From: Tomocerus qinae
Lineage: Eukaryota; Arthropoda; Collembola; Entomobryomorpha; Tomoceridae
Reading direction: 5' to 3'
Assembly: GCA_020055645.1 (NCBI GenBank)
Contig: CM034546.1
Coordinates: forward strand, 36,084,001-36,148,000
Length of the DNA stretch: 64,000 nt
Shown piece after piece: positions 5,436-32,617 of the stretch. Position numbers and translations under genes: made by a program. Below the pieces are notes generated by a model. It saw only the letters and a program-made list of their open reading frames with translations. It was not told the DNA's origin and ran no database searches. How positions within the stretch are numbered: the first letter of the stretch is position 1; every line of letters starts with the position of its first letter.

Positions 5436-8400
5436 GGCGCTGAACGTACTCCAACCGAAAAGAATTCTAAACTGTTGTCTACAATGTCAAAGAAAGACTG
5501 GCAAGGAATCAGAAATACATTTCTAGAAATACTACGAAAGACAGGCAATGAACATTGTGCACAAGCTATTCAAAAAACGAACGAGGTCTCTTCAATTCTA
5601 AGCCGGAGTCCTCGTTTTCACCCAAAAATTAATCGAAAGTGGTGGCCAGTGAAGAAGCGGCTGATTACATCTTTACTCAGAAGAAAAATCGGAGAGAAAT
5701 TTTTAATTGACGAGTTACATGACCGAATTTTGATAGACGAGAATCGAATGCTTGTAATCTGCGAGTCGTCAGCTGCATCCAAATACTCGGGGATGGGCGG
5801 AGTAGGCAAAACCCTCACCGCCAAATGGTATGCAAACACTTACGAAAAAGAATATGATCACATAATCTGGATCGACTGCGGCGAAGGCAGTCTGCTCACC
5901 TCCTTTGAAAGTCTGGCCAGAGATTTAGACATACCAAACAGAACTGAGTTGTTCCAAGTTCAAGATTTTTCAAGAAAATGTTTTGACGCACTGACTGGAT
6001 TTAAATGTCTCTGGGTTTATGACAATGCAGAAAACTACAAAGGCGAAGAAGGAATCATAAATGTCCTCCCAAATGACGAAAAAAACTTTTATTGTATCAT
6101 CACATCCCGAAGTCGTGAATGGGGAACTGAGAAGGTTGGATTCGGGAAAATATCCGATCTAGAACTAGACATTTTCAGTGAAGAAGAAAGTCTGGAATTC
6201 TTAAAGGCCACTTTAATTGATTCAGTGATTCGGACGGAATCACAACTCAAAGAATTGTGTCGATTGTTAGGATATCTGCCTTTGGCTCTGCAATTGACTG
6301 TTGCTGCGTTAAACAATAGAAAAATTGAACTAGAAAACTACATTGAAAAAACGGCTTCGAAGGACTTGGGATTTGTAGATGAGAATTTCGATGACTACGA
6401 AAAGACGATCAATAAAAATATCAAAATTTCGTTAGATTTGATTTTGAAACATAAAAATGGGAAGGTGGCATATAAAATGTTAATGATCTTTGGATATCTT
6501 CGACCAGACGACATTAGATCGCTATTTCTATGCGAAGTGTTAAAAATCAACCCAAGTGGAGCAAAAGAAGGCATCAAATTGTTGGAAAATTATGCCTTAC
6601 TTACCAAGACAGGCGAAATTACAGAATTTCCTTATAGAAACGGAATAATAAATAAATTATTCGTTTGGGACTTAATAATGATTGAAATGGATGTATTAAG
6701 CATCCATCGCCTTTTGCAGCAAGTAATTCGTTACAATGGACGAGAAAGTGAGAAGGAGATGTTGAGGAAGATTCTCGGCTGCGTGGGATTTATCGACTAC
6801 AAATTAATTCCTTTTACCAAATACGCTGATGAAAAACTCCAAAACGCATTTCCAGGAGTCAAAGCTGAGTTACTCGACCAAAGACAATTGAAGAAATTGA
6901 TTTCAGAAGAAAGATTTGAGGATTCGGTTCAACTAGCTAAATTTATTCACACAGAATTAAAGACAAGATCAACAAAATTTAATTATTCCGTTTGTCTGTA
7001 TATGAATGGACAGAAGGAGGAATGCGTTGATATCGTGAAGGAACTCTATGTTGATAAAAAGGAAGGAGCAAAGGAGAAAATAGTAATAAATACTTCTAAA
7101 ATGATTCTGGCGCTAATGAAAACGTTTAACGAAATGAAAACTGAAATCAACGTCGAGAAGTTTTTGAAGTTGATAGATTTGCAAGAAGAACCAACAAAAA
7201 CAGAAATCGGCTACATTTTATTCTACTGCAATTTGATGTTGGGGAAGGTTAATGAAGCTTTGACAATTGGACTACAAATAGCAAATGAAACTCACATAAT
7301 GAAAATTCTACACGAAATGCTTAAACAGACAAGTTTTGAGGATTCGGTCCAATTAGCTAAGATAGTTGCAGAAAAATTACAAACCAAAACAACGAAATTT
7401 AATCTCGCAGTTTGTCTGGCCAACAACGAGCAGTTGGAAGAAAGTTTGAATATTCTGAAGGAATTGGAGAAGGAAAAAATGAAAGAAACGAAAAAATATT
7501 CTGTCGATTCTATAGAAATGGGAATGTTGGGGCTGAAAGAAGAATTATCCAGAGATCTCGTTCATATCCATTTAAAGATCATTCAATGCAGAATAGAACT
7601 AAAAAATGAGTCGAAAGGAGGAAAAGACGCTAAACGAAGTTTCGATGTCAAATATTCAGAAGATTCACTTGGCACTTTGATTAGATTAGTCCATTCTGAT
7701 CTCATAAAGTCCAATTATTCTATGGTAAAGGATTCTTTAAAATCTACAATCTATTTGGAATTGGGAGGAGAATCAAATAAAATAGAATTGAAGGTATGTT
7801 CATTGGATCTTTCATCTTTCGATCGACTGTCTCCAGCGGAATTAAAGTTATATTATGTCTCATTCAATAGAAATGGACGGGAAGTGAAGGAGGCGAATTT
7901 CAACGAATTCTGTGACTTACACAAAATCAATAAATTGGCACTCTTTGGTGATAAAATGTCTATCGAGTTGAGTGACGAAATCTCCATGGAATATCTTCAC
8001 TTATATGGAGTGAAAGTGTTGAACTGGAAAGAGACCAGATGGAATATTCAAAGATTAGAATTGAGGAGTATTCCATTTGTGGAAAAGACGAAAATGAAAG
8101 TCAAAGAGATGGACTTTCGTTTTTCTTCTTTGGACATTTCTAGTCTTTCTCCAGCAATTGAAAAACTGCATTTAGGTCCAGCAGAAGTTGTTTGTAATGA
8201 ACCAATTGACCTTCCAAATCTGAAATATTTGACACTTTGCTGGATGTCCGATTTTTCCTTCTTGTCTTCTTTCCGATCTCCCAACCTCACACACATACAC
8301 TTCGATAGGATGAAACAAGTGAATGTAGATCAAATACCCAAAAGCCTCACCCACATCAAGATTAGTAATAGATACACGACAGTTGTTGGTGGAGTGAGGA

Positions 8401-8705
8401 GAGTGGAAAAACTCATTCTAGACTTCTTTTCTTTTAAAGAAGTGGAGGGATTGTTGGGTCACTTTCAGACAGACGAACTCGTTGTTCAATCTAAATGGAA
8501 CTCTTTATTTAGACCAAAAGAGTTGATTGAGTTGACGAAGAAAGAAATAAAGAGAATTGCAGTCGGAGAAATAGATTGGGAGGAAGAAGATTTGTCGGTT
8601 CTCTCCAGCCACGTCGACAGAAAAGCAGATTATTATTTGTGGGAGGGAGGAAGGGGGAGGGGAATGGAGAAGGAAGAGTTTGAGGAGTTGACGGAATTGT
8701 ATTAA
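5436..8705 (+). CDS. NLR-like protein A: half-CARD, NB-ARC, helical repeats, LRR tail (5'-partial)
   Basis: This exon encodes about 1089 residues. The frame stays open upstream to 5340, but a strong acceptor (TTATTCACAG) precedes 5436 and the copy-B exon structure supports splicing there in phase 0; the first exon is off the left edge. Residues 3-45 look like the second half of a CARD (T..EKN.KLL...KDW......LE.LRKTGN..CA). NB-ARC follows: P-loop GMGGVGKT (119-126), Walker B LWVYDNAE (Asp about 196), TSRSREW sensor, GYLPLALQ (from 279) and an MHD-like IHR (423-425). Two copies of a FEDSVQLAK-led helical unit start near 494 and 634, then an LRR-like tail (about 785-1089) ends in YYLWEGGRGRGMEKEEF. 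NB-ARC proteins are ATP-driven oligomerisation switches; the sensor ligand is unknown. The frame is intact, with no decay. An Apaf-1/Dark identity is unlikely because there are no WD40 repeats. Confidence 0.85.
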   Translation, partial: GAERTPTEKNSKLLSTMSKKDWQGIRNTFLEILRKTGNEHCAQAIQKTNEVSSILSRSPRFHPKINRKWWPVKKRLITSLLRRKIGEKFLIDELHDRILIDENRMLVICESSAASKYSGMGGVGKTLTAKWYANTYEKEYDHIIWIDCGEGSLLTSFESLARDLDIPNRTELFQVQDFSRKCFDALTGFKCLWVYDNAENYKGEEGIINVLPNDEKNFYCIITSRSREWGTEKVGFGKISDLELDIFSEEESLEFLKATLIDSVIRTESQLKELCRLLGYLPLALQLTVAALNNRKIELENYIEKTASKDLGFVDENFDDYEKTINKNIKISLDLILKHKNGKVAYKMLMIFGYLRPDDIRSLFLCEVLKINPSGAKEGIKLLENYALLTKTGEITEFPYRNGIINKLFVWDLIMIEMDVLSIHRLLQQVIRYNGRESEKEMLRKILGCVGFIDYKLIPFTKYADEKLQNAFPGVKAELLDQRQLKKLISEERFEDSVQLAKFIHTELKTRSTKFNYSVCLYMNGQKEECVDIVKELYVDKKEGAKEKIVINTSKMILALMKTFNEMKTEINVEKFLKLIDLQEEPTKTEIGYILFYCNLMLGKVNEALTIGLQIANETHIMKILHEMLKQTSFEDSVQLAKIVAEKLQTKTTKFNLAVCLANNEQLEESLNILKELEKEKMKETKKYSVDSIEMGMLGLKEELSRDLVHIHLKIIQCRIELKNESKGGKDAKRSFDVKYSEDSLGTLIRLVHSDLIKSNYSMVKDSLKSTIYLELGGESNKIELKVCSLDLSSFDRLSPAELKLYYVSFNRNGREVKEANFNEFCDLHKINKLALFGDKMSIELSDEISMEYLHLYGVKVLNWKETRWNIQRLELRSIPFVEKTKMKVKEMDFRFSSLDISSLSPAIEKLHLGPAEVVCNEPIDLPNLKYLTLCWMSDFSFLSSFRSPNLTHIHFDRMKQVNVDQIPKSLTHIKISNRYTTVVGGVRRVEKLILDFFSFKEVEGLLGHFQTDELVVQSKWNSLFRPKELIELTKKEIKRIAVGEIDWEEEDLSVLSSHVDRKADYYLWEGGRGRGMEKEEFEELTELY

Positions 8706-8888
8706 ACTAATTCGAGTGAATTCCATTAATTGTGATTCCAGTTGATGTCGAGAATAGGATGGTGGAGATTTCTTTTGTTGGTGCAATTCCTCTTGTTGCT
8801 ACTTTAATGGTCTCTTTATTTTGTCTTTATTCATGTTTACATTTCGATCCTCTTAAATGTGATCCACAAAAGTCTTAAATGGTTATGA

Positions 8889-8894
8889 AATAAA
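8889..8894 (+). promoter_or_regulatory. Poly(A) signal AATAAA of NLR gene A
   Basis: AATAAA lies 184 bp after the stop codon. The copy-B equivalent reads GATAAA. A 5.95-kb transposon is inserted two bases downstream, so cleavage and polyadenylation downstream sequences of gene A were replaced. Confidence 0.5.
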
Positions 8895-8963
8895 GTTACT
8901 GTTACCCGCTTTGAAGTTTAGCCTTCCTATCCCCAAGTTGCATAGCGATACGCATTCTGATTG

Positions 8964-9356
8964 TGTAAGGGATGTCCTCCACCCACGTTTCGTCCACCCC
9001 TTACCAGCCATTCCGCACCCGAATCACACCACATTTGCCTAACCAATCTCATTCCTTCCTATCGAAATGAACCGAACCTTCATACGTTCAGACAGTTGAA
9101 CATCTCGACAGTTCCCTCAGACTCGCGACACGATTCACTTCTCCTTCCTAAATTATCTCCAACCCAAGTAATATTCAGTCTAATACCAAATATAGTCGTA
9201 CAGCCAACTAAACCTAATCCAACTTGTACGCATTCACATTTATTTACTATTCGGCATGTCCATCTCTCACCTCATCTCATCAAAACTCACGATTCTATAG
9301 CACCCGGGCAGGTTTGCTCTTCCTTTGTTCCAACATAGGGAGCCAAACCCTTTAAA
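8964..9356 (+). repeat. Left LTR
   Basis: 393 bp, nearly identical to 13420-13812. The only differences I see are at 9066 (G against C) and near the 3' end (TTTAAA against TTTACA). Small ORFs inside are by-products of LTR sequence. Confidence 0.85.
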
Positions 9357-9358
9357 AA

Positions 9359-9383
9359 TGCTGCCGAAACCCAGGATTGAATC
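9359..9383 (+). other. Primer-binding site complementary to a tRNA-Phe-like 3' end
   Basis: The complement of this stretch reads as a tRNA 3' end: T-loop TTCAATC, five-base T-stem strand, seven-base acceptor strand TTTCGGC, discriminator A and GCA in place of CCA. An acceptor partner GCCGAAA is typical of arthropod tRNA-Phe. The match extends about 22-25 nt, longer than the usual 18; one base of the TGG start is changed to C. Confidence 0.7.
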
Positions 9384-12099
9384 AAACCTTGAAGGAAAAA
9401 TAGTTTCGAACGAGTACAAAATTTTTCAAATGATGTCGAAACACCAGGATTGACCACATCTGAGAAGAAGATTTCTCACCACTGAAAACCCTTTACGGTG
9501 CTGACAAAACTCTGTGATGAACACCAAACCTGGATGGAAGATTTCTGTTTTTCCGTTCTGAGAAAAGAACAGGAGTGCAGAACCATGGACTTTTTGACGG
9601 GATGATTTTAAGAAAAAGTAGCAACCGAGAAATGGACTAGCAAAGCGGATTCCTGAGTTATGAGTTACCAAGACCATCGAGTGAGCACGAGTCAGAATTA
9701 CGTTGGGGGAAAGGATTTCAATTGGTCTGATAACTAGCGTAAGGTCTTGATATTGTTATAATTAATTGGTAATCTCTATTAATATTTCGAAGTATTAAAT
9801 ATTTTAAGTAAATAAGAAACAGAGTAACGAACGTTGAAATATCTACAGTTTTGCTATGCGATAGTAGTAAACGTAGATCTCAGAGATTAATTTGAGTTAA
9901 GCAACCCCATGCTTCTGAAATAACATTTCTGAGTGTTCGAGGTAATAAATTAAATGATTAAAATTTAAGTAGTATTTAGTATAATAATGGAAAGAGTACT
10001 GAGCAAAATTTAAATTGCAGTTGATGATAGACTGGCAGTAAAGGTAATCAATTATCAATAGAATATGAAGTATTAATATTGATTTAAGTTTAATCTTTCA
10101 ATAGAAATTTGCGAATTTCTGAGAAAACAGTAAGCGAAATCACTGTCTAGAAATAATTGGAAGTAAAGTAAAATTCGAAGCGACGGGAGAGATAATTCGA
10201 ATTTGGAAGAGATTTGAATGCGTGGAGTTGAGGGACTCAGGAAAAGTAGAGAGATATACAAAAATATTTAATCTAAATAAAAGTCAAAAGGACAGTAATT
10301 CACATTATTTAAACTAGCGAGCTTTAGCATTATGACTCATTTTGACAGTTCAAATTGCGTTTTATATTTGTCTACGTATACTTTAGAACGTTGCAAATCC
10401 ACAATATTATACTGGTATAATTTTTCTAAATGTATACAGATAATATAGTCAACGGAACATTTCTATGCCCTGTTTCATAGTTAATGATTAACTTGTTTTA
10501 AAATGCTTTTTAAAGTTTAATTTGTTTGATGAAACGTCCAATAATCTCTTCTACATTTCTTTCAATTGGTTTTTCTTCAAAATTAAGATCGTAGTAGGTG
10601 TACTGATAGAAATTGCAAATAATAGAGAGTACACATAAATAGAATAACTAGAGGGAATATTCTATAGAGTTTGGTTTGTAGAAAAGTCTGTGGGTGAGAA
10701 AGCCCGGCAGACATTTAGAATTGGTTACTGGTTATAGTATGCTAAAGAATTTAGATACATAATTGGAAAATTGAAGTCTGCGGATGTGATGGTCAAGCAG
10801 ACATATAAATTAAGTAATTGACTATAGAGGAAAATAGAGAGCTAGACAAAGGAATCTATAGGTGCGCATATAGAGTTTCTTAGAAGTGTACAATGGTACG
10901 CAAATTAGCTCAGGTAGAGGGGGTATTATAGTAGCAAGTTGAAACCTATCGTGAAAGGTATGGTTCACTTTAAAAATGAAATAATGTTAATTGAATGTGA
11001 GTTGACTACTTAATACGGCCCATAAGATGTAAATGAATGTCGTCAAGGACAAGCAAGGGAATAGATGACGATGTTTACAGCAGCCGGCAGTTGATAGCGA
11101 GATCTATGTGGGAAGCTGAAGCAGTTCGTTATACAAAGGATGACTAGGAAAGGTTATAAGCTGCTTTATGTGAAGGTAAAGCTAGCAATATTCCGTACAT
11201 GAAGATTTTGAGATGTCCGGGAAGATAGAGGAAAAGGAGACCAGACAATGGAAATTTTGCTTTATGTGATGGCAGAGCAAGCATAATCAGCGATGCAGAA
11301 TATAGATGGTTATTATAGCTATAACTAATAGAAAAGGTTACCATAAGAGGAAAATGTTTGTAAATGCATTTAGAGGTTGAATTACGAAACAGCATAGATA
11401 ACCACAGTTTTAATTTTCTTTGGGATGACCACTCTTTGATTAGTAGAACTACTATCAATGTTATATTCTATTCCTAATGTAAACTTTTTTTGTATCAGCA
11501 CAAAAGGTATTATAAGCATGGTTCGCTGTTAATGTTCTTTGTATTGGAAATCTATTCTCTTCATTTTTGAATAGTAGACTGAAATAACTATAGCTCATGT
11601 AGGAGGTCAAATAAGCAGTATTATTAAGAATACAAAGCTGAATATTACCTATACAGTAACAAATAGAGCTTAATATTGGAAACAGTTGTATTAATAACTA
11701 TTGTGAAATTGGATAAAAATTATAAATATGGAAAGAAAATCCTTTGTTAGAATATTAATAATACAGTAGATAAACTTTTGTCAAAAATAAGACAAATAAG
11801 CGTATATCCTATAAGTTTAACTAAAATGAATGTGCATTGTCTCACCTTTAATAGTAAACCTCAAATTTTACCGTGATGGGAAGGTCATGGTAGGGCACGA
11901 CACATAAGGACGATGACGTCAATATCTGACTGTGCACATGAAGATATAGATGACTGATTACAATACTTTTCTATAAGAGGCCACCTTGCAATACTTTTCT
12001 ATAAGAGGCCACCTGTGAAATCTACTACATAAAGTCTTGTATTTCACTATGTAATACTCGGACACATCTTACTGTAAGAAGCCACCTTTTCAATGAATC

Positions 12100-12215
12100 A
12101 TCTTATAAATGTGGAGACCATCATATAAATGCGGAGACCATCATATAAATGTGGAGACCATCATATAAATGTGGAGACCATCATATAAATGTGGAGACCA
12201 TCTTATAAATGGGAC
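12100..12215 (+). repeat. 20-bp tandem repeat inside the LTR element
   Basis: About six copies of GTGGAGACCATCATATAAAT, one with GCGGAG. Just upstream, at 11965-12013, a 27-bp block with CAATACTTTTCTATAAGAGG is duplicated. No coding role seen. Confidence 0.9.
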
Positions 12216-13419
12216 ACTTCATTCTTTTCATGATGTTTAGTCAAGCCAGCACCAACCAGACAGTGGACCAGCAGAGACGTAAAGCATGCTACCGTAGTGA
12301 GATAGCTAAGTACAGCAATACTTACCAAAAGGCGGCATGACGAGGTGGTCACGATGGAATAATGTCACCTTATGGCCGTATAGGATTGACAATACCAATA
12401 TCCATACCTGCCTCGGAATCACCAAAATCAGTTTCCAAGTGCAATGAAGGACGCCTTAATGACAACAACACAGATATAACGACTACACCACACAAAGTAT
12501 CACCACCAATCCATGAAGAAATTCGTCGAGACGTCGATGAAAGACAACCCGATCATGCCAACAGATACTATTAGACTATTCTACTTAGAGCATAAGAGTA
12601 TGATACAGACAGAGATATTTCGGTTCTATTCTTTTTGCTATCGATGACCTAAGGAGTGACTGCAGCAAACTCCAACCCTACCAATGATGGTACAATATTC
12701 TTCGATCACGATCATTCTGGGACGACGAAAACACCTTCTGATGCCTGAGAGGTGACAATAATCTTTTACTACACGTGATCCTATCACCGAGTTCGAGACT
12801 ACCTTAGCAGAGAGATCAACGAAGGATGCAGCCCTACTCTTTCTACATCAGACTGCTACTCATTGCGACAAATCAGCGCTTACTTCAACCTTCAGCATAG
12901 TTTATTACTACAATTGGAGTGCAATTCGCAACATCTGAATTTTAAATAGTGTAAGTGAAGTGATGAGACATTAAACACCAATAATGACAATACCTAAAGG
13001 TGACTTTATCTCGTTTATTCAGCATGTAAGTTCAGTTCTATAGTTAAGATATAATTAATTGATGTTAGATATAGTAATAGTATTCATTTAATGCTTATAT
13101 AATAATTCAATTGGATCTATAATTATAAGTTGAATATAAGTATATGAAAAGACTATAACCGTATAAGTATGATGATGAAATGACTTGAAATGTTGTATAA
13201 TATCAATATATGTATGAAATTAACAGATTCAGTTTTCGATATTATTTTAATTATTTATTAAGAAGCTGAGAAGTGAAAGGATGATGTACGTTAAAATAAC
13301 TTAAAATAATCCTTTTATTTTTGTCATGAATGAAAACATTTGATATGAAGGCATGTATAATGATTATGTAATGATGTGCAAATATTTTAATTCTTGCCAA
13401 AAAGATTGCGACGGGAGGT

Positions 13420-13812
13420 TGTAAGGGATGTCCTCCACCCACGTTTCGTCCACCCCTTACCAGCCATTCCGCACCCGAATCACACCACATTTGCCTAACC
13501 AATCTCATTCCTTCCTATCCAAATGAACCGAACCTTCATACGTTCAGACAGTTGAACATCTCGACAGTTCCCTCAGACTCGCGACACGATTCACTTCTCC
13601 TTCCTAAATTATCTCCAACCCAAGTAATATTCAGTCTAATACCAAATATAGTCGTACAGCCAACTAAACCTAATCCAACTTGTACGCATTCACATTTATT
13701 TACTATTCGGCATGTCCATCTCTCACCTCATCTCATCAAAACTCACGATTCTATAGCACCCGGGCAGGTTTGCTCTTCCTTTGTTCCAACATAGGGAGCC
13801 AAACCCTTTACA
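13420..13812 (+). repeat. Right LTR
   Basis: 393 bp, nearly identical to 8964-9356. It is preceded by a purine-rich tract and followed by the ATTG target duplication. Confidence 0.85.
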
Positions 13813-14221
13813 ATTGGTTGATAATTTTTGAAATCCTGCAATCTGATTGGTTATTTCTATGACAAAAATTCTATAGGTTACCTAAATGGGGACACATTTT
13901 CAAAAATTATGAAATTGTTGCAAAACTCAACCAAGTCATATTATGAATCATCTGAATGATCTATTTACCTACTAGTTTCCCTTTCAATGTACACATTTAT
14001 GAGAATGGTGAATCGAGCTATTTATATACACAATATTATGCAATTATTTAACTATGACTCTGGTACAAGTGAACAATCGGTACTACTTTATTCCAATTTA
14101 TTACCAAATAAAGGTTATATATAATATAGGTCGGTTTGAAGATTAATATCATTCAGTACTGTTATAGTAGCGTAGAACAAAATATCAATAAATCATTAAG
14201 ATCCATCTTTTTTCATTTCAG

Positions 14222-14367
14222 CTGTATTATTTAGCCTAGGAGTCCTTTTGACCTGGATTCGACGAAAATTAAAAGTTAGTCGCCTGAGTGTCATTGAGGA
14301 GTTGTCCAAGAAAGGTTACAGTCAGCTCGCAAATACTGATGAAGCATCAGCTTCTGAGACAGTGTAA
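14222..14367 (+). pseudogene. Exon-like segment encoding a membrane-protein C-terminus, held between transposon arms
   Basis: A polypyrimidine tract and acceptor (TTTTTTCATTTCAG) precede an open frame of about 47 residues ending at TAA (14365-14367). It starts with a hydrophobic run VLFSLGVLLTW, then RRK, then a polar tail with YSQL, which fits a Yxx-hydrophobic sorting signal, and ends SASETV. AATAAA occurs at about 14501. This looks like the last exon of a single-pass or terminal-helix membrane protein. It sits exactly in the unique core of the TIR element, so capture from a host gene is likely. I do not recognise the parent gene, and no upstream exon is visible. Confidence 0.5.
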
Positions 14368-15642
14368 TCTGATTGCTTCTACATATTTATAGAGATCGAA
14401 TAGTTAATTAATGTTGTGTAAACATATTTTCTAGAATACAGTGCAATTAACTAGTTAGTTACATAGTTAATTCTAAATGCATTTACCTTCATGTGGTAAT
14501 AAATTGGAATAAAGTAGTACCGATTGTTCACTTGTACCAGAGTCATAGTTAAATAATTGCATAATATTGTGTATATAAATAGCTCGATTCACCATTCTCA
14601 TAAATGTGTACATTGAAAGGGAAACTAGTAGGTAAATAGATCATTCAGATGATTCATAATATGACTTGGTTGAGTTTTGCAACAATTTCATAATTTTTGA
14701 AAATGTGTCCCCATTTAGGTAACCTATAGAATTTTTGTCATAGAAATAACCAATCAGATTGCAGGATTTCAAAAATTATCAACCAATCAGAATGCGTATC
14801 GCTATGCAACTTGGGGATAGGAAGGCTAAACTTCAAAGCGGGTAACAGTATATAAAATGATTTATGACCTTTTGCAAATAAAATATTTATTATAATGAAC
14901 TTTATATATCATTGCGAAAACTAAATAAACTAAAAAATCCAGTTCCCTCCAACTGGCGTCGCTACCGCATTTTCTTATTTCGATCGCTAGCAGACATTTA
15001 TTGATCACAATCGAAGGCCGGTAATCAATTCTATTGTCAACACCCGCCGAAGACATAAAAAGTTCCCTACATGGCCATGAAATATCAATTTTCGTGCCAA
15101 AAAGGCGTATTTCATGCAAATGCAGCGTTGGACAAACATCTTCATTTACATACTGGTCTATGTTGATGTTAAACAGTCTCAAATCCTTATTTGTATGCTT
15201 ATCTCTATATATCCGTCCCTGTCTTCTCAAATTATTCCTTCATACGTCATTTTATGCCGTAATTCGTATTTTAGGTATTATTTTATTTTCAGCCTAAAAA
15301 CTAACTACATTCCCACTGGCGTCGCAACCGCATTTTTTTATTTCAAGCACCAGCCAACAATTATTGGTTAATAACGATAGACTGCAACGTACTCTATTGT
15401 CATTACCCGCCAAAGACATAAAAAGTTTCCGACAAGTTGATGAAATTTGAATTCCTCCTAAGACAATTTTCATCCAAGTGCCAACAGTCTAAATTTTCAG
15501 ATATTTCTTAATCTATTCTAATATAATAAAATAACTAAAATCTGCGAAATTAGTTAACCCATGGTCACCTTAGCTCTTACTTGATTTGCTGGGTAAATGT
15601 CGCGTTAGACTAACATCTTCATCCAGCAGGAACGTATCTACA

Positions 15643-15745
15643 AGACGGGGCATCTAAATCCCTAGAAAAAGAGGATTTTTTGTCAATAAAGGTTAAAAAG
15701 GTAAAATTTTGTCGAAAAATGTTGTTTTTGCTAATATTTTGTGGT
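15643..15745 (+). repeat. Relic of the CAAGCACGTATCCAG MITE family
   Basis: The sequence from ACGTATCTACAAG through TAAATCCCTAGAAAAAGAGG and TCAATAAAGGTTAAAAAGG resembles the 5' half of the family at 17488 and 42369. A duplicate relic lies at 36952-37060 in copy B, so insertion predates the duplication. Confidence 0.5.
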
Positions 15746-15808
15746 AAGCCTCCCCACTTACCCAACCCAGGAATTACCCAATTGTCTGCTTCCGTCTTCT
15801 TCCTTTGG

Positions 15809-16044
15809 TCAGATTAGTTCATTCTGATTTGATAAAGTCCAATTATTCCCTAGTGGAGGATCCTTATAATTAAATTGGAATAGGGAGAAGAATCAACAAA
15901 ATTTAGTTGGATAGATGTTCATTGGATCTTTCATCTTTTGATCGACTGACTCCAGAGGAATTGAAGTATTGAACCTCTCATTCAATAGAAATGGACTGGA
16001 AGTGGAGGAGGCGAATGCCAACAAATTCTGTGACTTACACAAAA
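15809..16044 (+). pseudogene. Decayed LRR-tail fragment of an NLR-like gene (copy A)
   Basis: The stretch aligns with 7680-7925 of NLR gene A: the regions encoding the RLVHSDLIKSNYS-like, SLDLSSFDRL-like and SFNRNG-EVEEAN-like segments are recognisable. Stops and frameshifts break it, for example after the TAGTGGAGGATCC and TTGAAGTATTGA stretches. It ends abruptly at CACAAAACTTTCTC. A matching remnant is in copy B, so an older NLR copy existed before the segmental duplication. Confidence 0.75.
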
Positions 16045-17060: not shown

Positions 17061-17430
17061 ACAGGGGATACCGGAAGCAGTCGAAGAATTACATTGTTAT
17101 ATTTATACCGAAAGCGCCAACGTGGATGACTATGCAACCAAAATATTTCATTTGGAGTGGCTGTTTTGAACAGATTAAGAGAAAATACATTGATTGCTAA
17201 ATTGGAGAGCAGCAATCTAATTGATATCTGTGAGTTGGGGAAATGGTACAATTCAAAATGACTTCTGTAGAGATGGTACTCATTTTTCTAGGTGTAAAAT
17301 TAGTTTTAGTATTTTTTGAGGTTTTAAAATCATATTAAAATGATACTTAATTTCACTTAACTGGATTTTAGGCATCGGAAGAGTTTAGTAAAAACAAATC
17401 AGATGTCGATAAATTCCAGCGATTTTATAC
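17061..17430 (+). pseudogene. BTB/POZ-domain fragment, decayed (copy A)
   Basis: It aligns with 39102-39500. Readable pieces encode a DDYATKIF-like and N-RL-ENTLI-KLES segment, then, after an intron-like gap, ASEEFSKNKSDVDKFQRF. A deletion removes the FAIDDFEPEAVEAF part present in copy B, and the frame is broken. BTB domains dimerise and often recruit Cullin-3; this copy cannot make one. Confidence 0.55.
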
Positions 17431-17487
17431 TGCAATTTATATCGGGATGAAATGGAAAGATTTAGAACGTTTCATCGTGAATTACAA

Positions 17488-21413: not shown

Positions 21414-22759
21414 TAAGAAGATCCAGACTAAATCAGAAGATAACACAAAAAGTGGTTGTTGCATTGCTTTATTACGGGATTCGCTATGGGCCACTCAAGT
21501 ATGTAAAGCAGAAACATCTTAATTGCTGATTGTTAAGAAGGCATGACAAACGCAGTCACATTTTTGCTCCTCACATCTCCATAATTCAACCTTAATGTTA
21601 TATTATCAAGTCAGCTAATCTCTCTATCATCGATTATATAGTCATCTCAAAAATGTACACACAATAATTAAATCATAAGTTGGAGCTAAGTATAACTTAA
21701 CCATAACCAAATATCATCGCTTTTCTTGAGCTATATTGGACCACAACATTTTTTTTATTACCATTTCATATCACAAAATCGTAATTGTATTCAAACAAGT
21801 CTAGTATCGTTTCGTTTTAGCATTAAAGTTTGCATGGACAATAAACCACTTCAAATGCATGGAAAAAGTAGCGGCCATACAGTATTAGTACTTAAGACTG
21901 CGTAATCGTTAAAACCGATGATATCCTGATAACTGGTATAAATTATTTCGTTAGTGGCTACTTGTATATGCAAAAGGAAGTCCCTTATAAATATGAATTC
22001 AAAGTATTGGAATCCATATACATACTTGATTATTGTAGTAAATCCAATTTTCGGGTTAAGGGTTAAGTTTAGGCACACCAAACACAAAAAGTTGAATTGC
22101 CTTTTGACCCTCAATTCACTACTTTTTTGTTTAAAGTTATCCAGCTTTTGCTTTTTGTTTGTATCAAATCAGTTATGCAGTAAGTTATAATAGTTTTGAT
22201 GTAATAGAAGGAAAATAAACATTATATTACTATATTCATAATGAAATTGAACTCTATCTCTATATAATAACACTAGAGATATCAAAAACCCAACCACTAC
22301 ATTTTGTTCGTGGATATTCCACGATTCCATAATTGCAAGACCCATAAAAATCGAATACCTATTTTGGGAACAGCTAAACCGTATGTTAAGACAAATTTTA
22401 AATTCAATGTAGTTCAATGTAGGTTGACACTAAACGTTAATCATGGAATATTCGAGCGCATAAAGTGAACACAACGTAAATTAAACTATATTTTATTCGT
22501 TACGCTGCCAAATTTCTTCCCCTGAGGTAGTGAAATAGCCGGGCCGGTTAACTTGGGGTTTGGGCTTGAACAACAATTAACTATCTCTATTACGACAAGA
22601 AAGTTTGTCGTGTGCCGTGTGTCGCCGCCTAAGAAATACATTTGGTGTGTTGTGTAAATTATTGGCTTTCGATGACTTTGCTGAGCCAAAGCAAAAGACT
22701 CGGGTACGAATAAGCTGAAGCTATAAGCTGTCTGTTGGAGGTGGGGGCTGTAAAACAAT
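21414..22759. other. Intergenic, no gene recognised
   Basis: Only short ORFs in all frames and no recognisable domain or repeat. The last 270 bases lead into the minisatellite. Confidence 0.5.
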
Positions 22760-24364
22760 TTCGAGTGCCTTCGAAAAATTCGACTGCCTTCGAAAAATTC
22801 GACTGCCTTCGAAAAATTCGACTGCCTTCGAAAAATTCGACTGCCTTCGAAAAATTCGACTGCCTTCGAATAAGTTCGACTGCCTTCGAATAAGTTCGAC
22901 TGCCTTCGAATAAGTTCGACTGCTTTCGAATAAGTTCGACTGCCTTCGAATAAGTTCGACTGCTTTCGAATAAGTTCGACTGCCTTCGAATAAGTTCGAC
23001 TGCTTTCGAATAAGTTTGACTGCCTTCGAATAAGTTCGACTGCCTTCGAATAAGTTCGACTGCCTTCGAATAAATTCGACTGCTTTCGAATAAGTTCGAC
23101 TGCTTTCGAATAAGTTCGACTGCCTTCGAATAAGTTCGACTGCTTTCGAATAAGTTTGACTGCCTTCGAATAAATTCGACTGCCTTCGAATAAGTTTGAC
23201 TGCCTTCGAATAAATTCGACTGCCTTCGAATAAATTCGACTGCCTTCGAATAAATTCGACTGCCTTCGAATAAGTTCGACTGCCTTCGAATAAGTTCGAC
23301 TGCCTTCGAATAAATTCGACTGCCTTCGAATAAGTTCGACTGCCTTCGAATAAGTTCGACTGCCTTCGAATAAATTCGACTGCTTTCGAATAAGTTCGAC
23401 TGCCTTCGAATAAATTCGACTGCTTTCGAATAAGTTCGACTGCTTTCGAATAAGTTCGACTGCTTTCGAATAAGTTCGACTGCTTTCGAATAAGTTCGAC
23501 TGCTTTCGAATAAGTTCGACTGCTTTCGAATAAGTTCGACTGCCTTCGAATAAGTTCGACTGCTTTCGAATAAGTTCGACTGCCTTCGAATAAGTTCGAC
23601 TGCCTTCGAATAAGTTCGACTGCCTTCGAATAAGTTCGACTGCCTTCGAATAAGTTCGACTGCCTTCGAATAAGTTCGACTGCCTTCGAATAAATTCGAC
23701 TGCCTTCGAATAAGTTCGACTGCCTTCGAATAAGTTCGACTGCCTTCGAATAAGTTCGACTGCCTTCGAATAAATTCGACTGCTTTCGAATAAGTTCGAC
23801 TGCCTTCGAATAAGTTCGACTGCCTTCGAATAAGTTCGACTGCCTTCGAATAAGTTCGACTGCCTTCGAATAAGTTCGACTGCCTTCGAATAAGTTCGAC
23901 TGCCTTCGAATAAGTTCGACTGCCTTCGAATAAGTTCGACTGCCTTCGAATAAGTTCGACTGCCTTCGAATAAGTTCGACTGCCTTCGAATAAGTTCGAC
24001 TGCCTTCGAATAAGTTCGACTGCCTTCGAATAAGTTCGACTGCCTTCGAATAAGTTCGACTGCCTTCGAATAAGTTCGACTGCCTTCGAATAAGTTCGAC
24101 TGCCTTCGAATAAGTTCGACTGCCTTCGAATAAGTTCGACTGCCTTCGAATAAGTTCGACTGCCTTCGAATAAGTTCGACTGCCTTCGAATAAGTTCGAC
24201 TGCCTTCGAATAAATTCGACTGCCTTCGAACAAATTCGACTGCCTTCGAATAAATTCGACTGCCTTCGAATAAGTTCGACTGCCTTCGAATAAGTTCGAC
24301 TGCTTTGGAATAAGTTCGACTGCCTTCGAATAAGTTCGACTGCCTTCGAATAAATTCGAGTGCC
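22760..24364. repeat. 20-bp minisatellite, about 75-80 copies
   Basis: The unit TGCCTTCGAATAAGTTCGAC is tandemly repeated for 1.6 kb. The first roughly 100 bp use a 19-bp variant (TGCCTTCGAAAAATTCGAC). Two positions vary through the array (TGCC/TGCT and TAAG/TAAA). The block at about 23780-24190 is nearly uniform, while 22870-23560 is mixed, which suggests later expansion of the right-hand part. Long minus-strand ORFs of 626 and 524 codons cross it only because the unit has no stop in those frames; 60 bp gives a 20-residue periodic peptide. I treat it as non-coding. Confidence 0.95.
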
Positions 24365-26414
24365 AAAAATTTTACAAAAATTTTAATAACTCAGAGATTA
24401 CTTTAGCATATTCGAATGAAATTACTTTTAAAGAACAGATTGTCTATCGTGTAGTAGAATCTTATAATAAACCTAAATACGGTAATGAAATATCTGCCCG
24501 TGGAAGAAGCGAGAAATTAAAAAAATCTAAGATAGCAATTGCCATTTAATTTTTATAAAAATTGCTGATTTATTGGGGGACAAAAGTGTTATAAATCCTC
24601 TAAAAATTATAAACCGGACACGGACTGTTCCCTGGATTTGGGTGTGAGAAAGTAGTGTAAAACAAGGTTGGTGTGTTGGCTCTACTCACATTTATTTCCA
24701 GCCAAATTCCTCTAGAATCCTGTCGTGCGAATTTATTCGCATTTTCATTAAGGCCTGAGTATAGTGACGGCCTGGTTATATTGACGGGCTCGTTGAGTCA
24801 TATTTCGGCAATAAATTTAGGAAATTATGTTTATTTTGTTAGTAATTAACTGTGATGAGCGTCCTCAATTGAAAAAATGAGACAAAAATGTTGTACATAT
24901 CGTAAAAAGTGAAGTATTTTCAGACAATATTACACAGTTCTAATTTTACAGTTTACAACAAATATCTAGGACATGGTTTGTTTCTTTTTTTTCAATTAAA
25001 CGATTGGTTGTGAAATTGAGAAATATCATAATTCAATGTAAATGGATCAATTATAAATTTCCCCGCACATGAAGTAATGAGATCCTTGAGAGCACTCAGC
25101 CTTAGAAAGTTGGAAAAATTTGTATACAGAATGCATGCACTACTTCTGTAATGAAATATTTGAATATTAGAAATAATGTAATATATCAACATTGTTACAT
25201 TCAACGCGCATGAACAAGTCTACGTTTATCATATAGAGTGATGATAGTTGTGTATTGTGTAATGTGTCAGTCAATTCTGGTGGACAAAACAATTGACTCT
25301 AACGTGCGCAAAATTTTGTATCTTTCGAAAACCAAATCAAATTTTGATACCTAAACGTTTCGAAATTATAGTAATGCAGTGGCACGAAAATCTCTTGACA
25401 CAAACATAAACCTACACGGGCACACATACGGAATTATCTACTCGCATGTCCCACTTTACTCTTATAAGAAGAGATGGACCAATAAATGGTCAAGTCTGCC
25501 TTATTGGCAATGGACCAACAAATGGTCAAGTCTGCCTTATTTGGCCAAGAGCCGTTTAAACGGTCAAATAAATGTTTTATGATAGTAATAATATGAAGAA
25601 TTTTTAGTCAACTCTATCATATTATACAGAATCCCAAAAGTCGATGAGTCCATTAAACTTTCTTGACACAATAGCACAACAAAACTTCAAGATGCGAGTG
25701 AAAATGAATAACTACAACAAACGGTATAATACTTAATTGAAGGAAGAAGTTTCTACTACCACGTCACACAACGGTTGTATTTACATTTAATAATTTTATC
25801 ATACTTTGCATTTAAAACACGCAAGCGTGTATGCATAAATTTAGCAAGAAACCATTCTGTTTTGAAACGTTATGGCTTGCCCTATTCTCATAAATACATA
25901 TAGACACATACAAACATACGTACCTACATACAAATGTTTTTAATAATGTACCCCAAAGCAGTTGACCCGAAGTCCACTGTAATCAAAGTGCCTTTGTCAG
26001 GTAACTTCGGAAGGCATCAGACAAATGTACGTTGCGTGTGGTGGACATCGGGTAAACTGCTTTGGGGTACATTATTAAAAACATTAATTATTCAATACGC
26101 GTGCGCCAGTTTATCTTTATACTTTAGTCATGATGGTATTACATTTTCTATCATAACCAGTAAGAAGGTACATATCTATGCCGCACACAAAATTTCATTT
26201 TATCTATATTCATAACAGTATTAACATAGGCAAAGTGCTTGTGTGTTTAGCTCCACAAAACTTACCACATTTAAACCCAAGCCAACTCATCAAATATCAG
26301 ACATTGTCCTTCAGAGCCATTTTACAATTCTGCCATTAGAGTGGTTAACTTCTTTACGTATGGCCACATTGTAATTTTCTGTGCTTTTGTTAAAATAATT
26401 TTATCCTCATTACA
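24365..26414. other. Intergenic before NLR gene B
   Basis: No gene is recognised. A 38-bp block with AAATGGTCAAGTCTGCCTTA is duplicated at about 25483-25545. A MITE at 25933-26085 is listed separately. The promoter of NLR gene B should lie in the last few hundred bases; no clear TATA box is seen. Confidence 0.5.
25933..26085. mobile_element. Short MITE with 40-bp terminal inverted repeats
   Basis: The ends AATGTTTTTAATAATGTACC... and its complement match over about 42 bp with few differences, leaving a core of about 65 bp. No ORF. Target duplication not certain. Confidence 0.8.
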
Positions 26415-29400
26415 ATGGAAGACGAAATTAAACGAAATCTTGTTTTCTTGACTGAAAATCTTACAAATTTAACAATGGTGCTGACGTATTTGATTCAATT
26501 GGACATCATCTCTAACGCTGAAAGGGAGGACATTGTAAGTTTACCAATTTTTTAAATTTATTATCAGCTTTTTTGCATAACTGCTGGCCAAAACAAAGTA
26601 TATAGGACATCCTACCTGCATAATGTTTTTGCTTATAAACGTAGGATAGACAGCTAGAGAGTACGAAGAATCAGAATCCGCTGACTATTAAAATTAACAT
26701 TGTTATTATATGAGTGAAAGTTGAAATTCGATAAATAGTATGAAAGCCAGGCTGTGCTCCAAGTCCCATAGGAAAACCTATTTCGATCTTTATACGGAAT
26801 TTTGTTTCAAAAATGTTTGGAATTAGATCGACCCAGTATATTTATAAAAGAATTGACCTGATTTGACATAAATGATTTCGAATTGCCAAACAAATCATTA
26901 CCAAACAAAATCGAACGATGAAAACTATTATAGTAGGAAAAAGGAATCATTATATTCATTTGAATGTGAATTGTATTTGATACAAGTCATAATGTTTCTT
27001 GTTGAATTACATTAATATGAGAGTAGGAAATATGCACAGAATTGTGTTAGTGCGTTGGTTACATTTACACATAATAAAACGATTTTCAAGGAGTTATACT
27101 CTACAGTCTTCACTGATGATAATAAGTACAAACGGAAAATACAATGCTATTAGTATAGGCATTAGATTTTCAGTGACTTCTCTGAGAAAAGTGACGCAAT
27201 TTATATAGATACATTTACATAGTTTTCAATAAGACTAATGTTGACAATGTCATATGCGAATAAGTTAAACGACGTTTACTGCCAGAAAGTTTTGCTGGAG
27301 TATTGTTTGACATATGCTGTCTGTGGCTTTACTCCTGACGATATAAAAGTAATGGAAATCGTAAGAAACTGTGGTAAAGTGACCATTTAATTTTTGTATT
27401 TCCGCTTAACTTATAATGAAATGTTTGGTCAATAGGGCGTAAGCGTAGATCTGATTTATGCATGAGTACCATAAACAACGAATTAAAAACGCTGATAGTT
27501 TTTCGCATATACTTAGATAGATCGTGTCATCATTTGGTATAAATTATGTTTAGAGTTTACTCTGCTATATGAATATATTATGAATATATAATTTAAGACG
27601 TAAATACAGTTGAAACATGATGTAATCCCAATCAATGGAAGGGTTTATTGGCATTTTAGACTTGGACTCGAAAAAAAGGAGTGCGTAAACAAATTGCTGG
27701 CCGTAAAAGTTAAAAACAACTATTGCACGTAGATTTACTTCCTTTTAACTCGTTATGCATTAGGAAGCTATGTATGGGTAGTATTTAATTCTGGCCTATA
27801 ATTAATATGTTAAATAAAGAAAGTATTTTAAAATTAGCAAATTTTCTAACTCAAAGGTAGTCTACTAATACAGCATAATAGGCTAGCAGCACAGATTAAA
27901 AGTATTTTATTCGACACTTTATAAACTTAGCTGAAACTTAAAAACATTTAGTTTACTAGTCAATTTGGCTAGTATTTATAACAACAATTGGTAGTGATTT
28001 ATGCTGTAAAATTTAATAATAATAAAAAATTAGATACGGAGCTTCAAACCCGGAAATTTAGATTTCCCATAAATTACAGTATCGCTATTGTTTAGCTTAG
28101 TGAAAAATTTTACTTTTACAATGAAAATGCACAATAGGTAAAAATTCTCATTGCGATTTAGAACTTAAATGGTAAAGGTGACTCAAACTGTAAAATTTAA
28201 ATGATTTCGACGCAAAGCATAAGAATAAAGGTACTTAGGTAGATATTATATTATGTCTATAGTATTAGATAACCGCGAAAGTTGACAAGTGCTGGGGCTA
28301 ATTGCGTCTGTGTCGGTTGTTTGTAGTTACGTCTGTTAGTTAGCCGCATTCTGATCAACTAAGCACAATCTAATTTAATCATCGTATATGTATAGATTTA
28401 TGAGATACTACGACTTACGACTACATTATCAAGCACGTATCCAGGAAGTTGACCTAGTAGGTGCACACCAAAAGATATTAGTAAAATTATAGCATATTCG
28501 CTCAAAGCGCAAAATTTTTTGGATTTTTAACATTCCTTGACAAAAAAACGTCTTTTTCTGGAAGCTTGGGGGGGGCGAAGATTTTACCGGGAATACTGTG
28601 TGTATTTTCTAAAATAGAAATATTTAGCATATATGGTGACCTTTTCTTGGTTTTCAAAAAGTCCTATTCTCGCGTGGTAAAGGAAAAGTATACTCTTGTA
28701 GGCCTCCCTGTACACAATTTCTTCCTGTTTGTGGAGAATAGTATACTCTCCCAAAGAACACGCTTAAATGTTCCTCAAAATGAAGAAAATTTCATATTCC
28801 TAGGGTAGAGTTTAAACGGAAGAGAGTTTGAATTCTTATATGTGGTTTCTGACTACATCCAAGTGTAATGTGTACACCTAAAGCCGGGTATATATTATTT
28901 ACATGCCAATGATGCATTGTATGATTCATTGATTTTATGATACTGTTTCTTAAAACTATTAAAACTGGTTAATCACTCAATTAATTTTCCCGAAGATATG
29001 CAATATATGAATATAATAGTAATTTTGAAAGCCAAACAGGACAATTTAATTAAACTGGTAAATCTGCAAACTGTCGAAAGTCGGAAACAACAGAAAATGG
29101 AGTTAGTAAGGGTCTTTTAGTGTTTGGAGTAATCATTTGCTAATTTAGTTTATTCCGGCTTAATTTTGGACAAATCAGGGTAAATTTTGTCACCTAAGGT
29201 TTAATAGCATCAAGTCTGGCTACGATGCTTAGCACAGAAGAAAATTCTCGAATCTAATTTAGTAAAGTTTTGCACAAGTTGTCTACACTCGGCTATAAAA
29301 TTAGTCATATGAACGTTTTACTTTATTCACAGGACGCTGAAAGCACTCTTACCAAAAAGAATACTAAATTGTTGTCTACACTGGGAAGGAAAGACTGGCA

Positions 29401-32400
29401 AGGAATCAGAGATATATTTCTAGAAATACTACGAAAGACAGGAAATGATCGTTGTGCACGAGTAATTCAAGAAACGAATGACAGACATTCCTATTCCCAC
29501 GAGGTCTCTCCAATTCTAATCCAGAATCCTCTTTTTCATTTGAAACTAAATAAAAAGTGGTGGCCAGATATGAAGCAGCTAACAGTATCACTTCTCAAAA
29601 GAAAATACCGAGAAAAACTCCTAATTGAAGAGTTAAAAGATCGAATTTCAAAGGACAAGAACCAAATGCTCGTCATCTGCGAGTCCCAAGCTGCATCCAA
29701 ATATTCGGGGATGGGCGGAGTCGGCAAAACTCTAACCGCCAAATGGTATGCACACACTTACGAACAAGAATACGAACACGTCATCTGGATCGACTGTGGG
29801 GAAGGCAGTCTACTCACCTCTTTTGAAAGCTTGGCTAGAGATTTGGAAATACCAAACAGAAATGAATTGGTCAAAGTTCAAGATTATTCGAGAAAATGTT
29901 TCGATGCACTGACTGCATTTAAATGTCTTTGGATCTACGACAATACAGAAAATTACAGAGGTAAAGACGGAATTATAGATGTCCTCACAAACGGCAAAAA
30001 AAACTTTTATTGTATCATCACGTCCCGAAGTCGTGAATGGGGAACAGAGAAGGTTGGATTCGGGAAAATATCCGACCTGGAACTGGACATTTTCAGCGAA
30101 GAAGAAAGTCTGGAATTCTTAAAGGCCACTTTACTGGATTCAGTGATTCGGACGGAATCACAACTCATGGAATTGGGTCTATTGTTAGGATATCTGCCTT
30201 TAGCTCTGCAATTGACTGTTGCTGCGTTAAACAATAGAAAAATTGAACTCCAAAGCTACATTGAGAAAACATCTTCGAAGGACTTGAGATTTCTTGATGA
30301 GAGATTCGATGATTATGAAAAGACGATCAATAAAAACATCAGAATTACTTTAGATTTAATTTTGGAACAAGAAAAGGGTAAATTGGCGTACGAAATGTTA
30401 ATGATCTTTGGATATATTCGACCAGATGACATTCGATCGCTTTTTCTATCCAAACTTTTAAACATCGATCCAAGTGCAGCAGAAGAAGCGATAAATTTGT
30501 TGGAAAAGTACGCCTTGATCACAAAAACCGGAAAGGTGTTGGAATTTCCCCATAAAAAGGGAATGATGAATAAATTATTCCGTAAGAATGAAATGAAGAT
30601 TGAAATGGATCTATTGAGCATCCATCGCCTTCTGCAGCAAGTGATTCGTTACAATGGACGAGAGACAGAGAAGGAGACGTTGAGGAAGATTCTCGGCTGC
30701 GTGGGGTTTATCGACTACAAATTAATTCCTTTTACCAAATATGCCAGTAAAGAACTACAGAAGGCATTTCCAAAAGTCAGAGCAGAGTTACTCGATCAGC
30801 GACAACTGAAGAAATTGATTTCAGAAGAAAGATTTGAGGATTCGGTTCAACTAGCTAAATTTATTCACGCAGAATTGAAGACAAGATCAACAAAATTTAA
30901 TTATTCCGTTTGTCTGTATACGAATGGAGAGAAGGAGGAATGCATTGACATCCTGAAGGAACTCTATCTTGATAAAAAAGGGGAAGCAAATGAGAAAGTG
31001 ATAACAACAGATGCTGAAATCATTCCGGAATTAATGAAAACCTTTTACGAAATGAAAACTGAAATCGACGTGGAGAAGTATTTGAAGTTGATAGACTTGC
31101 AAAAAGAGCCTACAAAAAAAGAAATCGGATATACTTTATTCTATTACAATTTGATGTTGGAAACAGTTGAAGAAGCTCTGAAAATTGGACTACAGGACGC
31201 AAATGAAGACCACATTATGAAACTTTTACCTGAAATGCTAAGAGAAAAAAGTTTTGAGGAGTCGATCCAATTAGCAAAGATAATAGTGGAAAAATTAAAA
31301 ACCAAAACAACAAAATTTAATCTTGCAGTTTGTCTTGTCAAAAATGAGCAATTGGAAGAAAGTTTGGATATTCTGAAAGAATTGAAGAAGGAAGAAATGA
31401 AAGAAACCAGAAAATATTCAGTCGATTTTATAAAAATGGGAATGTTGGGATTGGAAGAAGAATTGTCCAGAGACTTGGTTCATATCCATTTAAGGGCTAT
31501 TCAATGCAGAATAGAACTGCGAAAGAAATCGAAAAGAGGAAAAGACGCTAAAAGAAGTTTCGAGGTCGTTTATTCTGAAGATTCACTTGGCACTTTGATT
31601 AGATTAGTCCATTCAGATCTCATAAAGTCCAATTATTCTCTCGTAAAGGAATATGAAAGATCTACAATCAAATTGGAATTGGGAGGAGAATCAACTAAAA
31701 TAGAATTGAAGAGATGTTCATTGGATCTTTCATCTTTCGATCGACTGTCTCCACAGGAATTGCAGTTACGGAATGTCTCATTCAATAGAAATGGACGGGA
31801 AGTGGAGGAGGCGAATCTCAACGAATTCTGTGACTTCCACAAAATCAATAAATTGACACTCTGGGGTGATAAAATGTCTATCGAGTTGATTGACGAAATC
31901 TCCATGGAATATCTTCACTTAAATGGAGTGAAAGTGTTGAACTGGAAAGAGGCCAGATGGAATATTCAAAGATTAAGATTGTGGTATATTCCATTTGTGG
32001 AAAAGATGAAACTGAAAGTCAAAGAGATGGACTTTAATTATTCTTCTTTGGACATTTCTAGTCTTCCTCCAACAATTGAAAAATTGTATTTATTTAGAGC
32101 AGAAGTTGTTTGTAATGAACCAATTGACCTTCCAAATCTGAAATATTTGAGACTTTTTGAGATGTCCGATTCTTTCTTCTTGTCTTCTTTCCGATCTGCC
32201 AACCTCACACACATACACTTCAATAGGATGAAAGAAATGAATGTAGATCAACTACCCAAAAGCGTCACCCACATCAAATTAACTAAGACAATAGTTGTTG
32301 GTGGAGTGAGGAGAGTGGAAAAACTCATTCTATTCGACTTTTCTTTTAAAGAAGTGAAGGAATTGTTGGGTCACTTTCAGACAGACGAACTCGTTGTTTG

Positions 32401-32617
32401 GTCTGGCTCTGGCTTTTATTCATTTACACCAAAAGTGTTGATTGAGTTGACGAAGAAAGAAATAAAGAGAATTGCAGTCGGAAGAATAGATTGGCGGGGA
32501 GATTTGTCGGTTCGCTCCAGCATCGTCGACAGAAAAGCAGATTATTATTTGTGGGAGGGAGGAAGGGGGAGGGGAATGGAGAGGAAAGAGTTTGAGGAGT
32601 TAATGGAATTGTATTAA
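26415..32617 (+). CDS. NLR-like protein B: CARD, NB-ARC, helical repeats, LRR tail
   Basis: Exons 26415-26534 (40 codons, donor ATT|GTAAGT) and 29333-32617 (acceptor TTATTCACAG) join in phase 0 to give 1134 residues. Exon 1 (N..LTYLIQLDIIS.AEREDI) plus exon 2 (T..KNTKLLSTL..KDW...FLEILRKTGN..CA) makes one CARD-like fold of about 85 residues. NB-ARC: P-loop GMGGVGKT (166-173), Walker B LWIYDNTE, TSRSREW, GYLPLALQ, and IHR in the MHD position. Two FEDSVQLAK/FEESIQLAK helical units and the LRR-like tail follow, ending GRGRGMERKEFEELMELY. It is the intact paralogue of gene A (5436-8705). CARD proteins recruit partners by homotypic contact and NB-ARC proteins oligomerise on ATP binding, so a cytosolic signalling platform is the likely role. 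The 3' UTR is interrupted by a 666-bp element. Confidence 0.85.
27238..27360 (+). CDS. Candidate alternative first exon (second half-CARD) of NLR gene B
   Basis: An open stretch from ATG 27238 (or 27247) of 41 codons ends ATC|GTAAGA in phase 0, exactly like the 26415 exon. The encoded LLEYCLTY...GFTPDDIKVMEI resembles the first CARD half of the F-box gene (ELLFVVL...GWITEMEKLRI). A TATATA lies about 35 bp upstream of the ATG. Splicing to 29333 would swap the front half of the CARD. The segment is absent from copy A. It could instead be a relic of another CARD gene. Confidence 0.45.
28431..28585 (-). mobile_element. MITE relic, CAAGCACGTATCCAG family
   Basis: CAAGCACGTATCCAGG at the left end is followed by the reverse complement of the family core (GCATATTCGC ... 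TTTTTGGATTTTTAAC ... TTTCTGGAAGCTTGGGGGGG). The right terminus is lost. Confidence 0.6.

Follow-up and report, generated by a model that had tools for sequence, protein, structure and literature searches.

The 64,000-nucleotide stretch of the collembolan Tomocerus qinae considered here, hereafter the window (G000:C1:36084001-36148000), carries two related genes whose predicted products combine a CARD, an NB-ARC ATPase domain and leucine-rich repeats (LRRs). The assembly from which it is taken comprises 334 Mb in 115 contigs, and 114 matches to chitin-binding cuticle proteins in the genome bear out the arthropod origin that an earlier note had read from the sequence. Two long open frames at 5319-8705 (copy A) and 29258-32617 (copy B) share 77% identity; a splice acceptor opens coding exon 2 of each, at 5436 and 29333 respectively, and the preceding intron is in phase 0 in both copies. 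The predicted exons and domains are as follows:

G000:C1:36083823-36083942 (= L016:624-743), left of the window, + strand: copy A exon 1, from the CARD-exon match
5436..8705, + strand: copy A exon 2, from the open frame and acceptor
5436..5573, + strand: copy A, second half of the CARD (PF00619 positions 42-83)
5787..6434, + strand: copy A NB-ARC (PF00931, 1e-12, 48.3 bits; recovered in the genome-wide search too)
6435..6899, + strand: copy A winged-helix region, containing the LSIHRLLQQVIR motif (approximate limits, from the alignment)
6900..7640, + strand: copy A helical TPR-like segment (approximate limits, from weak Pfam and PDB profile matches)
7641..8702, + strand: copy A C-terminal LRR with hypervariable concave-face positions (FNIP, 1.8e-4)
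26415..26534, + strand: copy B exon 1 (40 codons), carrying the start codon and the N-terminal half of the CARD (MEDEIKRN...AEREDI)
26535..29332, + strand: copy B intron 1, 2798 bp, with acceptor TTATTCACAG, read from the sequence
29333..32617, + strand: copy B exon 2, remainder of the CARD, linker, NB-ARC, winged-helix region, TPR-like segment, LRR and stop
29675..30244, + strand: copy B NB-ARC (PF00931, 2.4e-9, 37.3 bits)
31541..32614, + strand: copy B C-terminal LRR (FNIP repeat, 3.2e-5)

Exon 1 of copy B ends at a GTAAGT donor at 26535, in phase 0 with exon 2, and exon 1 of copy A lies at the position foreseen from aligning the introns of the two copies. A conserved segment at 59-298, considered as an upstream exon of copy A, was discarded; it holds no long open frame and is intron sequence shortly after exon 1.

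Separate tests support each of the three domains, and the CARD-NB-ARC-LRR layout proposed in the earlier note is confirmed. Pfam hidden Markov model searches return NB-ARC and CARD matches above the cut-off in both copies, with E-values for the spliced CARD of 1.1e-11 (45.1 bits) in copy A and 2.6e-9 in copy B. The CARD thus stands in front as had been claimed, and it is complete only with an exon beyond the coordinates first considered. The NB-ARC of copy B retains a GMGGVGKT P-loop, a WIYDN Walker B motif, TSR and GYLPL. The LRRs follow, recognised by FNIP and by structure: the 50 matches listed in a comparison with an AlphaFold model for copy B are LRR proteins, a listing that is uninformative on other folds. 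They do not follow the ATPase directly, as a helical TPR-like segment intervenes that had not been foreseen; in copy A it matches TPR_19 (4.3e-4) and ANAPC3 (3.8e-4), both under the Pfam cut-off, and alpha-solenoid and PPR chains are among the matches of a PDB profile search. DUF7779 has no match in copies A or B on Pfam scanning and scores below its cut-off of 27 in three paralogues (L036 25.5, L038 17.2, L043 14.9). Neither protein matches NACHT at E<=1, PF00931 being above the cut-off instead, nor any WD40 family at E<=1; TIR likewise has no Pfam match in either copy, a CARD taking its place, although no search was aimed at coiled coils.

The two genes had been described as a pair, a description that has to be abandoned: they are members of a very large family. 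A genome search with the NB-ARC of copy A returned matches all below E 1e-65 among the best 144 of 296 candidates, and the Pfam NB-ARC profile returned matches all above the cut-off among the best 126 of 253. Fragments less than 1.5 kb apart were merged into one place, giving at least 174 NB-ARC places (164 on C1, seven on C5 and one each on C14, C18 and C107), a lower bound that includes fragments and one Apaf-1 orthologue and in which C5 and other divergent places were counted from search matches rather than one by one. An open frame of at least 900 residues is present at 67 of the 126 PF00931 matches, and some family copies carry internal stops. The 40-residue CARD exon has at least 150 genome matches at E<=0.01 (scored from 232 candidates), 144 of them on C1. 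It is found on the same strand and no more than 8 kb upstream of 99 of the 174 NB-ARC places, compared with three in the downstream control; tblastn places it at E<1e-5 in 18 of 28 fetched stretches, those of A and B included, eight of the 28 being just 4.5-6 kb long. Domain order, ATPase motifs, gene number and the linkage of CARD exons can thus all be read from the predicted genes themselves. The chromosome-scale contig C1, at 140 Mb about 42% of the assembly, holds 164 of the 174 NB-ARC places and 144 of the 150 CARD exons; 62 of its NB-ARC places fall in the interval 30-40 Mb. The CARD exon of the paralogue L019, 0.56 Mb away, encodes a protein sequence identical to that of copy B, whereas their NB-ARC domains differ.

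Selection was analysed in 14 of the 28 fetched loci, those with a usable long exon 2 (broken, near-duplicate, cut and very divergent ones were omitted), which yield 91 pairs; 20 of these, with a synonymous divergence (dS) in the LRR below 0.3, are termed close. The ratio of non-synonymous to synonymous divergence (dN/dS) in the close pairs is 0.09-0.19 for the NB-ARC and 0.66-1.88 for the whole LRR, and between A and B the LRR has a dN of 0.121 and a dS of 0.064 (bootstrap P 0.004). The LRR was parsed as 14 repeats of the unit LxxLxLxxN, with the exposed sites at positions 5, 7 and 8 chosen by the general LRR rule. Mean entropy is 2.02 at these positions and 0.96 at the other LRR positions (p 4.7e-11). 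In 10 of the 12 pairs chosen for comparison, the proportion of non-synonymous differences (pN) at these sites is above that of synonymous ones (pS) at P<0.05. Across all 91 pairs the signal is weaker than in the chosen ones: pN exceeds pS at the exposed sites in 55, significantly in 26, with one significant in the opposite direction, compared with three of 91 at the remaining LRR sites. NB-ARC pN/pS across the same 91 pairs is 0.13-0.37. Pooled over seven close genes, the exposed positions have a pN of 0.408 and a pS of 0.169, an excess that 5000 random draws of 42 LRR sites never reached and that is equalled by none of the register shifts of 1 to 4 in either direction (-4 to +4), all of which lower pN; the pooled NB-ARC values are 0.098 and 0.493.

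These figures point to purifying selection on the NB-ARC and diversification of the LRR face, a pattern evident in the aligned sequences. In view of the purifying selection on the NB-ARC, a family of transposons or pseudogenes was rejected. It also bears on the suggestion that the family duplicates fast, is largely non-functional and changes in its LRR through relaxed constraint. Fragments and copies with internal stops do occur, and many pairs have a dN/dS close to 1 across the whole LRR, yet the NB-ARC ratio is about 0.1 to 0.2, and the scaffold positions of the repeat are conserved (pN 0.036 at position 4 and 0.056 at position 6) while the exposed positions 5, 7 and 8 change (0.24-0.55). 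Relaxation would not be expected to be position-specific, and we therefore regard it as highly improbable. The diversifying face lends support to the innate-sensing role that the earlier note had put forward; the genes may sense pathogens or trigger cell death.

The LRRs appear to have a history partly of their own. In the comparison of A with B, dS is about 0.5 up to the vicinity of codon 770 of exon 2 and about 0.05 beyond it; the low-dS part begins at about window position 7746 in A and 31600 in B and runs to the stop codons, and the 3' flank past the gene is more diverged again. In 82 of the 91 paralogue pairs the LRR pS lies below the NB-ARC pS. The boundary suggests that LRR cassettes have repeatedly been exchanged or converted.

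A CARD followed by an NB-ARC is common to Apaf-1 too, which raises the alternative that these are paralogues of Dark/Apaf-1 type that have lost their WD40 repeats and serve apoptosis instead of pathogen sensing; the genome indeed has 38 exon-level caspase matches. It also has an Apaf-1 orthologue of its own, a fragment at C1:106753564 that matches human Apaf-1 in the PDB (1z6t) at E 1.7e-34. In a midpoint-rooted NB-ARC tree of 36 sequences and 171 columns this fragment, represented by the second half of its NB-ARC, pairs with human Apaf-1 at a support of 1.0, apart from the family. Fourteen members of the family group as a clade at 0.94, whose sister, at 0.97, is the unnamed protein P0121; sequences from Ladona fulva, from Pseudolycoriella hygida and from three unnamed sources follow, then those of Dryococelus and others, and then bacterial proteins. 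The family NB-ARC thus falls outside the Apaf-1 clade in this tree and is distinct from the genome's own Apaf-1, as the earlier note had anticipated; because Dark and CED-4 are not among the sequences, the separation from Dark is indirect, a point that leaves the alternative some room. A PDB search with a family profile, which includes three database proteins, returned plant Roq1 first (E 1.8e-6) and no chain of Apaf-1, Dark or CED-4 at E<=10; with copy A alone nothing was returned at E<=1. The missing WD40 match in A and B is a weak criterion, as most insect Apaf-1 homologues are said to be without WD40 (PMC2246300). Copy number and a diversifying LRR are ill-suited to a core apoptosis gene. 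On this evidence we set aside a Dark orthologue without WD40, and consider it very unlikely that the genes are Dark/Apaf-1-type paralogues acting in apoptosis.

Database searches gave no near relative of copy A, its best match having 32% identity over 30% of the query, and no CARD appears among the Pfam domains listed for the best 120 of 511 and the best 120 of 728 database matches, a few of these domain lists being truncated. Candidate partners are present within the genome. Seven CARD matches exceed the Pfam cut-off, and one of these, at L013 (G000:C1:37576279-37577720; spliced CARD 1e-13, kinase PF00069 3.1e-23), precedes kinase exons on the same strand; its splice-consensus CARD and kinase exons lie within about 1.5 kb and are predicted to form a single gene. 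Its CARD is identical to that of copy A at 40 of 85 residues. Twenty kinase matches reach E<=1e-15, the query counted. Upstream of four of them, at a distance of 0.7-1.4 kb, lies a CARD exon, an arrangement visible in the genomic sequence at the following loci:

L013, C1:9597176, C1:37558372 and C1:78644674: CARD exon upstream of kinase exons

These loci possibly represent a RIPK2-like signalling branch. Another kinase match at E<=1e-15 lies 950 bases downstream of an NB-ARC; at G000:C1:37001879-37005594 (minus strand) a CARD exon, an NB-ARC and a kinase stand in series and may be one fused receptor-kinase gene.

A second family has LRRs of the same type. Its member in the window, an F-box-like gene, is predicted as:

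43001..45442, + strand: F-box-like gene with LRR, four exons (43001-43090, 43264-43485, 43693-43818, 43910-45442)

Its LRR is homologous to that of copy A (E 3e-31), and its F-box matches PF00646 at 15.0 bits, under the cut-off of 20.5; a database search with the protein returned no relative at E<=0.01. The family is also large, with at least 87 matches (the best 84 of 551 candidates scored). The first two exons of the gene, split in phase 0, looked CARD-like by eye; a CARD there was rejected for want of Pfam support, and no CARD exon was found within 8 kb upstream of any of 16 places tested of the 87. The expansion of this second LRR family might favour the view that the receptors serve self recognition, directed for example at selfish elements, mates or kin and not at pathogens, and that genetic conflict or allorecognition drives their diversification. 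Large multigene arrays under positive selection are known from self-recognition systems too, such as fungal NLRs; a CARD is, on the other hand, an output module typical of infection and cell-death signalling, and we find self recognition unlikely.

We consider it likely that copies A and B belong to a hugely expanded family of cytosolic STAND receptors, built of CARD, NB-ARC, winged helix, TPR-like segment and LRR, that act as intracellular immune receptors in the manner of plant NLRs and vertebrate NODs. Several observations weigh against this. The gene models are based on splice consensus and conservation between copies; many NB-ARC places are fragments or short frames (under 400 residues at 10 of 126 matches), and no CARD exon was found within 8 kb of 75 of the 174. 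The selection tests use half of the fetched loci, their pairs share sequences and are not independent, and the LRR anchors were set after viewing the alignment. For the whole LRR, dN exceeds dS in just eight of the 20 close pairs, significantly in two, and three favour dN<dS at >=0.95. At the exposed sites pN does not exceed pS in 36 of the 91 pairs and the result is not significant in 65; distant pairs have a high pS, and at position 7 pS is raised too (0.379).

The ligand, the activation cycle, CARD-CARD pairing and the immune output can be sketched by analogy. As in NLRs and Apaf-1, the receptor would be autoinhibited at rest, and the concave face of the LRR would bind a variable ligand, probably microbial. 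Binding would free the NB-ARC to exchange ADP for ATP and form an oligomer, whose clustered CARDs might recruit CARD-bearing partners, most plausibly the genome's own CARD-kinases, or CARD caspases, which in turn would start defence signalling or cell death. We are evenly divided over a broader proposal: that an arthropod lineage independently built a plant-scale CARD-NB-ARC-LRR arsenal, starting from an ankyrin/TPR-type (DUF7779) NB-ARC and not from Apaf-1 or NACHT proteins, wired it to CARD-kinases as NOD1/2 are wired to RIPK2, and diversified it by swapping LRR cassettes while selection acted on the concave face, with the F-box-like LRR family sharing the sensor.

Other features of the window are a tandem-repeat array between copies A and B at 22486-24390 (- strand), with three frames open on one strand; a reverse transcriptase frame at 34411-35547 (- strand; PF00078, 1.3e-28), presumably of a non-LTR element; and multi-helix frames resembling arthropod gustatory receptors by eye at 40624-41721 (-), 52782-53873 (-) and 58861-60202 (+), the first two of which have no supporting match on Pfam scanning. 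Two glycosyl hydrolase family 43 exons lie at 61345-61815 and 62030-62536 (Pfam 1.3e-19 and 1e-16), and such a gene in an animal is a candidate for horizontal transfer. Elsewhere, frames of 2375-2456 residues with non-ribosomal peptide synthetase (NRPS) condensation domains, unusual for an animal, occur at C1:39005011, 41016451, 41173166 and 108415927, and the single insect odorant-receptor match in the genome is weak and contains a stop; both features are in keeping with a springtail.

Full NLRs are usually absent from accounts of innate immunity in arthropods, and among the open-licence PMC papers listed by searches, no title or abstract opening reports a CARD-NB-ARC-LRR family in an arthropod. 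A 2024 survey describes arthropod NLRs as being without an N-terminal effector domain and does not count arthropods among the phyla in which an inflammasome may exist (PMC11508797). For at least one arthropod that statement is contradicted by a family of this size in which a CARD and a conserved ATPase are combined with a diversifying LRR. Other sources give the CED-4/Apaf-1 protein as single-copy in insect genomes (PMC2246300) and the NACHT/NB-ARC proteins of a placozoan as without LRRs (PMC6321704), and pair LRRs in animals with NACHT, in plants with AP-ATPases (PMC8195603). The family offers a concrete system, candidate kinase partner included, for testing convergent plant-like and vertebrate-like resistance.

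Amongst known systems the family resembles NOD1 and NOD2 in its N-terminal CARD, STAND ATPase and C-terminal LRR and in the presence of a predicted CARD-bearing kinase in the genome, reminiscent of RIPK2. NOD1 and NOD2 are laid out as CARD-NACHT-LRR and RIPK2 as kinase-CARD; the family, in contrast, has an NB-ARC in place of NACHT and a TPR-like segment between ATPase and LRR, and the candidate kinase carries its CARD in front rather than behind. With plant R proteins such as Roq1 it shares NB-ARC and LRR, chromosomal clusters, a conserved ATPase and a diversifying concave LRR face. Plant R proteins begin with a TIR or a coiled coil, whereas the family begins with a CARD and has the TPR-like segment in addition. 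The likeness to Apaf-1, Dark and CED-4 lies in CARD-NB-ARC; the family differs in that no WD40 was found in it, in an NB-ARC placed outside the Apaf-1 pair (in a tree of which Dark and CED-4 are not part) and in the separate Apaf-1 orthologue. The best NB-ARC database matches among those listed, and near neighbours in the tree, are NB-ARC-DUF7779 proteins: P0002 of Ladona fulva, P0013 of Dryococelus australis, P0124 of Pseudolycoriella hygida, the unnamed P0001 and bacterial FxSxx-COOH proteins. Of the insect proteins among these, P0002 and P0013 carry ankyrin repeats, and P0124 lacks both ankyrin repeats and LRRs; none of the 120 matches listed by either search shows a CARD among its Pfam domains. 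The family would be NLR-like in its working, yet it stands apart from animal NLRs by the absence of NACHT, from Apaf-1 by clade and from plant R proteins by its N-terminal domain.

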